Origin: Brevibacillus choshinensis
GTDB lineage: Bacteria; Bacillota; Bacilli; Brevibacillales; Brevibacillaceae
Assembly (NCBI RefSeq): GCF_016811915.1
Contig: NZ_CP069127.1
Coordinates: 3,013,001-3,077,000 of the forward strand
Length of the DNA: 64,000 nucleotides
Reading direction: 5' to 3'
The notes beneath the pieces were generated by a model. That model ran no database searches. It was given only the letters and a program-made list of their open reading frames with translations, and had not been told where the DNA came from. Shown here in pieces: positions 42,573 through 44,954 of the stretch (positions are counted from its first letter, which is position 1; each line of letters begins with the position of its first letter). A program made the translations under genes and the position numbers.

Positions 42573-42797
42573 TTATTCTTCCCGGTCCACGTTCTCGACA
42601 GAATTATCAACGACGTCACCAGCTTTATTACCTAGCATACCACCGACAACTGCACCCGCAACAGTACCAAGAGGTCCAAAAACGGAACCTGCGGCAGCGC
42701 CTGCGACAGCACCACCAGTCGTACCTACTGCTTCTGCTGCATTATTGTTATCTGCACCTTCGCTTTCATTTTGAAAACGATCTTTGCCTTCAGCCAT
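42573..42797 (-). CDS. glycine-zipper membrane protein, 74 residues
   Basis: After a hydrophilic start (MAEGKDRFQNESEGADNNN) comes a Gly/Ala-rich double glycine zipper (VGTTGGAVAGAAAGSVFGP, AGAVVGGMLGNKAGDVV), which normally packs as two membrane helices, and an acidic tail. The ATG at 42797 follows GAGGGGGTG. No signal peptide. Similar small proteins are found in spore and stress contexts, but function is not known. Confidence 0.72.
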   Translation of the reverse strand: MAEGKDRFQNESEGADNNNAAEAVGTTGGAVAGAAAGSVFGPLGTVAGAVVGGMLGNKAGDVVDNSVENVDREE

Positions 42798-43039
42798 CCA
42801 ATTCACCCCCTCATCCTGATGATAGGGAAGTTCTCTGCTTACCATGACATTCCCGGAAGTATTTTGCCCGTCTTGGGGTATTTCTACTCCAATCCTTCCA
42901 TGTCGGGAAACAGAAGCCGTACTCTTTTGCGAGCCTACCGCTCGAAACTGAATGACCGTTCCAGGCTACTCCCAGATTGATTCCTTTCAAAAAAGGCCAT
43001 AATGAAAGGAGGGATTGGAAAGGTACAGGAGGAACGAAC

Positions 43040-43213
43040 ATGAACATCGATCGAGCAAGTAAAATCGCTTTTATGGACTTTGGAGGTCATTTGATCCTGA
43101 ATATGCTGGAGTATCAAGACATCTCTCCTTCCAAAAGGCCCCGCAGCAAAAACTCTACTGAAAAAGAGCAAAAGAAAATACAGCAAAAGGTTTCATCAGA
43201 AATACCGTTTTAA
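43040..43213 (+). CDS. 57-residue basic protein, unknown
   Basis: AGGAGG lies 6 bases before the ATG at 43040. The product begins MNIDRASKIAFMDFGGHLIL, has a short amphipathic N-terminal half and a strongly charged tail (SKRPRSKNSTEKEQKKIQQK). No family is recognised. The start signal is good and the frame is closed on both sides. It stands alone; the convergent Gre-like gene ends at 43332. Confidence 0.55.
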   Translation: MNIDRASKIAFMDFGGHLILNMLEYQDISPSKRPRSKNSTEKEQKKIQQKVSSEIPF

Positions 43214-43331
43214 GTAATGTGTGAATCAAGCTGTTCTAGGTTACATGATGAAAGGCAGTGGCAGTCTACGAAATCATGTTTGATTTCGCAGCTGCCTCTG
43301 CCTTTTTATCTAGGAAAACGCTGAGGTCTCC

Positions 43332-43790
43332 TTATTGTCCTGGAAAACCTCCTCTATATGAGAAGCTTACCTCTTTGATTTGGACAGGCTGCCTGCCAAC
43401 CGGGCTTTCCAAAACCAGTGACTCCTGGGGTGCCGTCAAAAGCAACTGCCTGCCAATGGGAGATAAGAAGGATATTCGATTGTGATCAGGATCAATGTCT
43501 GTGGGAAAAACCACAGTAAATAACTCCTCGTAGCCGTCCTCTTCAAACCGTACACTCACGCTGCTGCCCAGTAAGGTTACATTTTGCAGGCTTTGGGACA
43601 ACTCACTGTCATCCTGAGCGAGAATGTCCTCTAAGGTCTCCCTGTACCGCCTGACGAGCGCATCCACGATCTGCTTTTCCTTGCCGTAATCGCGCACGTA
43701 ATGATCAAAAAAAAGAGAATATTGTTCATCGAAAAAGATGAGCTGCTGGATCAATTGCTCACGAGTCGCACTCAATATTCTATGGTTCAT
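43332..43790 (-). CDS. Gre-like factor (GreA/GreB C-terminal domain)
   Basis: The 152-residue protein has a helical N-terminal half (REQLIQQLIFFDEQYSLFF and following, about 1-65) and a C-terminal FKBP-like domain of the GreA/GreB type: LGSSVSVRFEEDG, ISFLSPIGRQLLLTA, LVLESPVGRQPVQIKEV. The N-terminal acidic residues that GreA uses at the RNA polymerase active site (two acids at the coiled-coil tip) cannot be placed with confidence, so it may compete with Gre factors like Gfh1 or Rnk rather than stimulate cleavage. GGGGGTG lies 9 bases before the ATG at 43790. A 23-codon ORF with a strong ribosome site overlaps its start, and a hairpin with a T-run lies upstream. Confidence 0.78.
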   Translation of the reverse strand: MNHRILSATREQLIQQLIFFDEQYSLFFDHYVRDYGKEKQIVDALVRRYRETLEDILAQDDSELSQSLQNVTLLGSSVSVRFEEDGYEELFTVVFPTDIDPDHNRISFLSPIGRQLLLTAPQESLVLESPVGRQPVQIKEVSFSYRGGFPGQ

Positions 43791-43851
43791 AATAAATGTC
43801 ACCCCCAATTAACTTTTCGCCGCTTCGTTTGATGAACTTGATGTCTTTCAT
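43780..43851 (-). CDS. 23-residue leader ORF overlapping the Gre-like gene
   Basis: The ATG at 43851 has a near-perfect AAGGAGG 7 bases upstream. The frame encodes MKDIKFIKRSGEKLIGGDI and four more residues, ending at TAG 43780-43782, 11 bases inside the Gre-like gene. The ribosome site of the Gre-like gene lies within it, so translation of the small ORF probably controls or couples to Gre translation. The encoded peptide may also have a function of its own. Confidence 0.55.
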   Translation of the reverse strand: MKDIKFIKRSGEKLIGGDIYYEP

Positions 43852-43865
43852 GGCAATACCTCCTT

Positions 43866-43895
43866 AAAAAAATAGCCCCGCGTCGAATCGGGACT
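43866..43895 (-). terminator. leader hairpin with T-run, attenuator-like
   Basis: On the minus strand AGTCCCG (43889-43895) pairs with CGGGGCT (43874-43880), one G-T pair, 8-base loop, followed by ATTTTTTT. It directly precedes the ribosome site of the small ORF and so lies in the leader of the Gre-like gene. Confidence 0.65.
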
Positions 43896-43954
43896 TCTCT
43901 CCATTTTATCAGGAATTTCCGGTGGTTTCCATTCTGTAGGCAACCCTGACGGAA

Positions 43955-43985
43955 CAAAAAAACCTCATCCTGATCAGATGAGGTT
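43955..43985 (-). terminator. terminator of the nitroreductase gene
   Basis: AACCTCATC / GATGAGGTT (9-bp perfect stem, 7-base loop) followed by TTTTTTTG on the minus strand, 7 bases after the stop at 43993. Confidence 0.85.
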
Positions 43986-43992
43986 CCCGTTT

Positions 43993-44640
43993 TTATTGAA
44001 TGTACGTGGTAATTTCGCTTACCTCTTTGCGAGGGAGCTTTTTCGGAACGTCTTGAGGATGTCCGAGTGCGATTACCATGTTCATTTGTTTTTCATCAGA
44101 GATGTTCAGGTAGCTTCTGATTTTATCAGCAGCAAGCAACACCGGTCCCGTCATCGGGCACGTACCCAAACCCTTTGCGTAAGCAGCCAGCATCAGGTTT
44201 TGGGTAGCCAGGCAGCTGCTCTTGATGCCCTCCTCTTCCCAGACCGTTTCCGGAACCAATTGGATCGGTTCGAAGATCTTTTCGCGGAACTTCGACTGGT
44301 ATGGGGTCGCCAAGCAGATGATCAGCGCAGGTGCATTCGAAAATGCCGTTGCATAGGGTCCAAATGAGCGAACCAACAGCTTGGCTTCCTTTTCAAATCC
44401 CTTTTCCGTTGCTGCTGCTGCTTTTTCGTTCAGAGCATCCCATGTGAGCTGCTCGATTTGTTTGATCATTTCTTTGTTGGTGATGACGATGAATTCCCAT
44501 GTTTGAGAATTCGTGTCACTAGGAGCGTAACGGGCACAGTCCAGGATGTCGTTGATGTCCTCGATCGACACGTCCTGTTCGGTAAATTTACGTACGCTGC
44601 GTCTTCCGTGAATAATATCTTTTAGTGCGTGAAAATCCAT
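43993..44640 (-). CDS. nitroreductase-family FMN oxidoreductase
   Basis: The 215-residue flavoprotein has the FMN-binding start IIHGRRSVRKFTEQDVS, the APSDTNSQTWEF phosphate loop and the C-terminal GTCPMTG and ALGHPQDVPKKLPRK region. It uses NAD(P)H to reduce nitro compounds, quinones or flavins as a dimer. AAAGGAG lies 8 bases before the ATG. It is monocistronic. Confidence 0.9.
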   Translation of the reverse strand: MDFHALKDIIHGRRSVRKFTEQDVSIEDINDILDCARYAPSDTNSQTWEFIVITNKEMIKQIEQLTWDALNEKAAAATEKGFEKEAKLLVRSFGPYATAFSNAPALIICLATPYQSKFREKIFEPIQLVPETVWEEEGIKSSCLATQNLMLAAYAKGLGTCPMTGPVLLAADKIRSYLNISDEKQMNMVIALGHPQDVPKKLPRKEVSEITTYIQ

Positions 44641-44954
44641 GTAGAGTGCTCCTTTTGTTTATTTACACGATTACCATTATAACGTAAAACTTTTGAATGT
44701 CGAAACTACTCTATGCGAAAACGGTTCTTACGTCAAGGGTTGTTCAATCCGATGAGGAGCGAAAACCGCAGCTTCCACTTCGAGTGCAGGGAGAGGACGG
44801 CTGGATTAAGGACCCTGACCAAAAGGGGTGTTCCACATTAGTGAACTTATTGTTTTCGACAACTTTCTGCATTTTCCTGCATTATCCAACAAAACGTGTT
44901 ACAAACCTGTTACGGCTTTCTCTTTTTTACAGTTCTCTCTCCATTCCTACCAGC
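44641..44954. other. intergenic stretch, promoter region of the nitroreductase
   Basis: The 300 bases between the nitroreductase start and the GH18 terminator hold no well-supported gene. Open frames here have no ribosome sites and unlikely composition. The nitroreductase promoter should be in 44641-44720. Confidence 0.4.

Follow-up and report, generated by a model that had tools for sequence, protein, structure and literature searches.

A short leader open reading frame with a conserved Glu-Pro-stop end overlaps the start of a Gre-like gene in Brevibacillus and other Bacilli: a candidate stalling leader peptide

Background

The closest described relatives of the locus analysed here are leader peptides and protein ends at which ribosomes stall, and a terminator in the leader of an Escherichia coli gene for a Gre factor. 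The locus lies in a window of 64,000 nucleotides (the whole stretch of DNA that was analysed, positions 3,013,001 to 3,077,000 of contig NZ_CP069127.1) of Brevibacillus choshinensis, whose genome is a single contig of 6.17 Mb. It consists of a gene whose product has the C-terminal domain of the GreA/GreB proteins, which we call Gre-like, and a leader that carries a hairpin, a run of T and a small open reading frame (ORF) whose end overlaps the start of the Gre-like gene. Arrest peptides of the RAPP type are reportedly encoded upstream of the genes that they control, and their conserved C-terminal end makes ribosomes stall.

TnaC, which leads the tna operon of E. coli, is a peptide of 24 residues with Pro-stop at its end, and the ribosome is arrested during termination while Pro24 occupies the P site (PMC8429421; this and the other published systems are compared here as the parts of the papers cited describe them). 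The Gre-like leader is likewise a short upstream ORF that ends in a conserved Pro-stop. TnaC differs in acting on Rho-dependent transcription termination and in sensing tryptophan, whereas the stop codon of the Gre-like leader overlaps the start of the next gene, its end is Glu-Pro and it has no known ligand. In E. coli a C-terminal Glu-Pro is among the dipeptides that favour tagging by transfer-messenger RNA at termination (PMC3985003), and a Glu-Pro-stop engineered into KanR stalls termination (PMC13410324), as does a Pro-Pro end (PMC3834316). The Glu-Pro dipeptide of these stalls is the same as ours, but the E. coli stalls come at the ends of ordinary or engineered proteins, whereas here Glu-Pro ends a conserved leader ORF. 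CruR offers another likeness, since it is an upstream ORF whose conserved C-terminal end stalls ribosomes and controls the next genes (PMC9426467); CruR and the RAPP peptides, however, carry an Arg-Ala-Pro-Pro motif and stand ahead of copper or protein-localisation genes, while Glu-Pro-stop here stands ahead of a Gre-like gene. At the RNA level the nearest parallel is GraL, which terminates about two thirds of the greA transcripts of E. coli; the autoregulation that depends on it requires catalytic GreA (D41; PMC6829880). Both leaders have a terminator or terminator-like element ahead of a Gre-type gene (PMC6829880), but the hairpin described here begins at the predicted transcription start (+1), the tip motif of GreA is missing from the protein, and a leader peptide is present. 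An earlier note on this locus, made from the letters of the window, knew of no described case in this lineage. Among the matches listed from open-licence papers on greA leaders, on Glu-Pro and other arrest peptides, and on Gre factors of these genera, part of which concerned unrelated subjects, none describes a leader peptide that stalls ribosomes ahead of a Gre-type gene.

Results and discussion

Conservation of the leader ORF and selection on its C-terminal end

Among 398 Bacilli genomes (an even draw) 59 match the Gre-like protein at an expectation value (E) of 1e-14 or better, with 61 matches, and four of these (L081-L084) were left out because their upstream sequence shows GreA. The 57 loci that remain come from 55 genomes, one of them with three loci; with L015 from Brevibacillus genome G003 they make 58 Bacilli loci, which belong to Brevibacillus, to other genera of its family and to family groups f4, f12, f27 and f54; Priestia may itself belong to one of these four. 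Three loci read from Priestia plasmids bring the number compared to 61. A leader ORF of 21-30 codons that ends in Glu-Pro-stop and overlaps the Gre-like gene by 11 nucleotides in every case is present at all 58 Bacilli loci (58/58), and the same leader ORF, overlap and Glu-Pro-stop are found at 3/3 of the Priestia loci. The start codon of the leader ORF was picked in each locus by the strength of its ribosome site, which has a match of 5-7 bases in 61/61, and the internal ribosome site of the Gre-like gene has a five-base core (GGGGG, GGAGG or AGGAG) in 58/61. The Gre-like start was set by motif, between 60 nucleotides before and 20 nucleotides after the aligned start; it is the same as the aligned start at 52/58 loci (55/61 with Priestia), and the other six are matches that begin some residues into the protein. 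The earlier note had let its proposal hang on conservation of the leader and its ORF, and it holds up on this point, both for the ORF, the overlap and the Glu-Pro-stop, and for the hairpin described below.

The conserved end of the peptide reads ...IY[YDN]EP-stop. At the 58 Bacilli loci the last residue, Pro, is encoded by CCA (37), CCC (11), CCG (6) or CCT (4), and the second-last, Glu, by GAA (52) or GAG (6); the third-last residue is Y in 42, D in 8, G in 4, N in 3 and C in 1, the residue at -4 is Tyr in 57/58 (TAC 30, TAT 27), and that at -5 is Ile in 51/58, with three codons used. The bases of the Pro codon, read in the other frame, give residue 3 of the Gre-like protein as H (37), P (11), R (6) or L (4), its codon always being CNT, and residue 2 is N or S. 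Because the Pro codons overlap the CNT codons in this way, the base that varies is silent for the leader peptide and replacing for the Gre-like protein. The changes were counted on a tree of the 61 Gre-like proteins from which the overlapped residues had been removed. This tree requires at least 10 changes of the Pro codon and at least 7 of the Glu codon, every one of which leaves the peptide as it is and replaces a residue of the Gre-like protein; the Tyr codon needs at least 11, of which at least one is to Asp. Of the single-base codon differences in the last five codons 18 are silent and 5 replacing (n = 23), where 5.7 silent ones are expected; in the N-terminal part 47 are silent and 71 replacing (n = 118), against 28.8 silent expected (both counts are sums over seven groups that cover 56/61 loci, with L053, L054, L056, L059 and L062 excluded). 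The N-terminal part of the peptide is thus divergent and weakly constrained, while the geometry of the overlap and the end of the peptide are kept, and its length nearly so.

Judged by these codon comparisons, the end of the peptide is kept by selection at the amino acid level in several bacterial families. Such a pair of overlapping frames can show which of the two is under selection, and here selection on the peptide can be read from the DNA by itself in Brevibacillus, Priestia and four further family groups. A double-coding artefact, in which the N-terminus of the Gre-like protein would fix the end of the peptide, is ruled out by the codon counts and the changes on the tree. We also rejected a +1 frameshift that would fuse the leader with the Gre-like frame: the slip codon would be CAT, CCT, CGT or CTT according to species, and the Gre-like gene has its own start and ribosome site.

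Specificity of the conserved end

A search of the 398 Bacilli genomes with a pattern of the peptide end gave 47 sites, 45 of which lie, by coordinates, at Gre-like starts; the reversed pattern, used as a control in the same genomes, gave none. The pattern misses 12/57 Gre-like loci, which have variant ends. At the other 2/47 sites the open stretch ahead has no ATG, GTG or TTG, and they look like chance occurrences. In 26 Brevibacillus genomes a slightly shorter exact pattern occurs 18 times, always at the Gre-like gene; it is also absent from the three of these genomes that lack the gene, and five genomes that have the gene carry the variant ends DYGEP or EYDEP, which fall outside the pattern. 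A wider regulon defined by the peptide end was rejected on these figures (18/18 Brevibacillus and 45/47 Bacilli sites at the Gre-like gene).

Outside Bacilli there were 35 Gre-like matches, of which 25 were obtained as loci (L095-L119, all of the same phylum and perhaps clostridial) and 24 could be placed. Neither the leader peptide nor the Glu-Pro overlap is present at any of the 24 placed loci, so the pattern is not forced by the gene being Gre-like; the leader peptide was found only in Bacilli.

The 5' hairpin and T tract

We called a leader terminator-like if it has a stem of at least 5 pairs, at least 3 of them G-C, a loop of 3-8 and at least 5 T in 8. Such an element is present in 44/61 leaders, against 2.6 expected from dinucleotide shuffles, and 17/61 fail the rule. 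The folding z of the leaders is below -1 in 54/61 and below -2 in 34/61. In the 35 bases before the ORF the longest T run is 5 or more in 36 of the 61 leaders, 4 in 16 and shorter in 9; it is T5-T7 in 17/18 of the main Brevibacillus group, while some relatives have a short or interrupted tract such as CTATTTGTAT or TTTTAACAA. The stem lies farther upstream in L055, and L059 and L073 have weak hairpins. In one f4 genus (15 distinct leaders) 94.8% of cells are paired in a 9-pair stem, of which only two pairs change on both sides. Its covariation score of 0.332 was reached by none of 500 shuffles (mean 0.218) and by no slid version (maximum 0.139); further pair types in this stem, which was read from the same sequences, are not above shuffles (143/500 are as high). 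Relatives outside Bacilli have a hairpin with a T-rich tail in 16/24, against 0.4 expected under a rule that was set after the sequences had been seen. Since these relatives have no peptide, the hairpin is more widespread than the peptide. Many strong hairpins with a T-rich tail among L095-L119 sit behind a TTGACA-type promoter.

The Gre-like protein

The C-terminal GreA_GreB domain (PF01272) matches the window protein (E 1.1e-13, 51.4 bits, cut-off 26.9) and 5/5 other family members scanned. The N-terminal GreA domain (PF03449) has no match at E up to 1 in any of the six members scanned (6/6, the window protein included), whereas the GreA of the host genome itself matches PF03449 at 3.8e-30. 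One Gre-like relative from outside Bacilli gives the same picture, PF01272 without PF03449. The acidic tip of the GreA N-terminal domain, with its catalytic residues, has the motif GDxxENxEY; the host's own, normal GreA carries it as GDISENSEY, and it is present in 0/61 members of the Gre-like family. With the C-terminal domain only, and neither an N-terminal match nor the tip motif, the protein is best named "Gre-like". The window protein stays below the cut-off of every NCBIfam Gre model. Among solved structures its profile matches are GreA/GreB, Rnk and Gfh1; these matches are strongest in the C-terminal domain and begin no earlier than profile position 41. That domain is what the Gre-like protein has in common with all of these, and from GreA/GreB it differs in the missing PF03449 match and tip motif. 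GreA and GreB have a helical hairpin (coiled coil) as their N-terminal domain; an AlphaFold model of the Gre-like protein, made from three sequences and too poor for use, has two long helices in its N-terminal part at low confidence (mean predicted local distance difference test score 50.1). An alignment with two other GreA proteins had suggested a deleted tip, but the gap shifted once the genome's own GreA was added; because its position is unstable between alignments, we claim only the absence of the tip motif.

How the leader may control the Gre-like gene

From the observed conservation, geometry and selection on the peptide end we infer that ribosomes stall in these bacteria, and in the same way which direction control takes, which signal is read and what part the hairpin plays in the scheme that follows. 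The reading that we favour, and hold to be on balance probable, is that termination at the Glu-Pro-stop of the leader peptide is slow and thereby sets the translation of the overlapping Gre-like gene. A ribosome would load at AAGGAGG and translate the 21-30 codons; a peptide of that many residues would still be within the exit tunnel at its stop codon. With peptidyl-(I)Y-Y/D-Glu-Pro-tRNA in place and the stop codon in the A site, termination would be slowed, and the waiting ribosome would cover the Gre-like start, which begins 5 nucleotides before the P-site codon, and bar other ribosomes from it. After release the small subunit, held by the internal ribosome site, would step back and start the Gre-like protein, so that the output of Gre-like protein would depend on how fast the ribosome terminates and is released at Glu-Pro-stop. 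The hairpin at the 5' terminus would be a second layer at the RNA level, as an early terminator or a 5' shield. Control may also run in the reverse direction, with a pause that helps reinitiation of the Gre-like gene.

Several points weigh against a stalling leader peptide. Stalling at Glu-Pro-stop is documented for E. coli (PMC3985003, PMC13410324), and no condition that the putative leader peptide would sense is known. We found no conserved fold that hides the Gre-like ribosome site (z = -0.29 for the window leader, with a mixed picture in relatives), and the end of the peptide could serve tight coupling without regulation. The leader ORF stops at TAG in 55, TAA in 5 and TGA in 1 of the 61 loci, so no single release factor is favoured. 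Lastly, the tree from which the codon changes were counted is a quick one with long branches, and 24/58 of its inner branches are open.

The earlier note had raised translational coupling by the tiny ORF as a possibility. Plain coupling, in which the leader ORF keeps the Gre-like ribosome site open, the Gre-like gene is translated by termination-reinitiation, and the peptide sequence is irrelevant, would suit the overlap, the internal ribosome site and the weak constraint on the N-terminal part of the peptide; 13/14 gene pairs tested for termination-reinitiation were strictly coupled (PMC6728339). It leaves unexplained why the Glu and Pro codons change only silently while Gre-like residues 2 and 3 vary, and why TAC/TAT and ATC/ATT change silently between the ribosome site and the start codon, and we regard it as unlikely. 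The arrangement that coupling would need is there, but the strongest signal is selection on the peptide end, which points to a stalling leader peptide. The same amino-acid selection on the C-terminal residues might be expected if the product of the leader ORF were a small trans-acting protein, one that binds the Gre-like protein for instance; we think this very improbable, as constraint falls mainly on the last residues, the remainder is highly variable and the overlap is constant (61/61). Constraint at the end only, together with a fixed overlap, suits a peptide that acts while it is in the ribosome.

Two other explanations concern the hairpin, which may serve as a very short terminator or may stabilise the 5' end; both are compatible with a stalling peptide. 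Were it a promoter-proximal intrinsic terminator, it would give an RNA of about 30 nucleotides and limit full transcripts, possibly with Gre feedback as at greA/GraL, and the ORF would be secondary. The abundance of terminator-like leaders, the covarying stem in one genus and the hairpins of the relatives that lack the peptide (found by a post hoc rule) speak for this; the likeness to E. coli greA on which the earlier note drew is only partial. Other points weigh against a terminator: the hairpin begins at the predicted +1, which leaves no upstream RNA to form an antiterminator, and no alternative upstream structure that could switch it is present; the T tract varies, being short or broken in some relatives, and 17/61 leaders fail the rule; the E. 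coli feedback needs catalytic GreA while the tip motif is in 0/61 of these Gre-like proteins (the host genome's own GreA could act on the leader instead); and a terminator says nothing about the selected peptide end. We therefore consider a terminator possible but doubtful. Stem-loops at the 5' end stabilise mRNA in Bacillus, and it is quite possible, though we hold this tentatively, that the hairpin shields the 5' end against 5'-end-dependent decay: the hairpin holds its position near +1 although its stem sequence, its loop and the T tract differ between relatives. An element that served stabilisation alone would be handicapped by a T run immediately after its GC stem, but such runs are frequent in these leaders.

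Taken further, the stalling leader peptide could form part of a feedback from ribosome to RNA polymerase, a speculative and rather unlikely extension in which the Glu-Pro-stop peptide would read how well termination and ribosome rescue proceed and set the dose of a tip-less Gre-like protein that modulates RNA polymerase, backed by the promoter-proximal hairpin. Such a device, if true, would make a separate class of leader peptides, with the stalled ribosome placed on the very start codon that it controls. The locus lets the speed of ribosome release be tested as the setter of the level of a putative RNA polymerase factor.

Distribution and neighbouring genes

The Gre-like gene is present in 23/26 Brevibacillus genomes. 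A plasmid search by protein found seven Priestia records, from which the three Priestia loci (L087, L088 and L089) were read, while the plasmid search by DNA found none and a phage search by protein gave no match. Gene and leader are thus carried on plasmids of Priestia megaterium and P. filamentosa, with P. megaterium ATCC 14581 among the carriers; in the Priestia gene tables, which are incomplete, the gene is called "GreA/GreB family elongation factor" and the leader ORF is unlisted. Genome G190 has three Gre-like paralogues (L057, L061 and L063), and a hairpin and a Glu-Pro-stop leader ORF precede every one of them. When neighbours were compared (ORFs of at least 100 codons within about 1.5 kb, or 2.5 kb for Priestia), the flanking genes in the 12 largest groups were common within genera and not across families, except that 16 loci of a single f4 genus fall into a group with one Priestia locus. 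A c-di-GMP-I (cyclic dimeric guanosine monophosphate, class I) riboswitch lies about 0.9 kb downstream of the Gre-like gene at L099 (524-613, minus strand), and at none of the other 15 loci scanned.

Features of the locus in the window

The hairpin, the run of seven T, the ribosome site, the 23-codon ORF and the overlap with the Gre-like gene that the earlier note had listed are all present, and all parts of the leader and the gene itself are on the minus strand of the window (Table 1). The predicted +1 at about 43896, 7 bases past the -10 hexamer and adjoining the hairpin, adds to that picture by placing the hairpin at the very 5' end, as does the finding that the small ORF holds the Gre-like ribosome site. 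TGGAAT or TGGATT, which resemble the -35-like hexamer of the window, are present in many relatives, and a TA...T hexamer is found 5' of the hairpin in 57/58 leaders by a permissive best-hexamer search, which in some leaders picked a hexamer farther upstream than the likeliest one.

Table 1. Positions of the leader elements and the Gre-like gene in the window
Feature	Position	Strand	Basis
-35-like hexamer TGGAAA	43926..43931	-	promoter scan
-10-like hexamer TAAAAT, in extended -10 TGaTAAAAT	43903..43908	-	promoter scan
Hairpin AGTCCCG-ATTCGACG-CGGGGCT, 7 pairs (5 G-C), at the predicted 5' end of the transcript	43874..43895	-	hairpin scan; conserved in relatives
Run of seven T (U) behind the hairpin	43866..43872	-	sequence reading
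Ribosome site AAGGAGG of the small ORF	43859..43865	-	sequence reading
Leader ORF, 23 codons, MKDIKFIKRSGEKLIGGDIYYEP, stop TAG	43780..43851	-	ORF list and relatives
Ribosome site GGGGGTGA of the Gre-like gene, within the leader ORF	43799..43806	-	sequence reading
C-terminal codons I-Y-Y-E-P-stop of the leader ORF, under amino-acid-level selection	43780..43797	-	codon comparison
11-nucleotide overlap ATGAACCATAG between the end of the leader ORF and the start of the Gre-like gene	43780..43790	-	kept in relatives
Gre-like gene, 152 amino acids, ATG at 43790; PF01272 C-terminal domain, no GreA N-terminal match	43332..43790	-	profile search

An Rfam scan of window positions 43300-44700 gave no match at E up to 5. 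A second terminator-like hairpin (43961-43985) stands between the upstream nitroreductase gene and the Gre-like promoter. On the other side of the gene, a 57-codon ORF on the plus strand (43040-43213, MNIDRASKIAF...), with AGGAGG ahead of its ATG, is directed toward the Gre-like gene, and a long hairpin with a T run, seen by eye at about 43255-43305, lies between the two. Farther on, the minus strand encodes a 90-amino-acid protein (42573-42845) with a glycine-zipper match at the Pfam cut-off.
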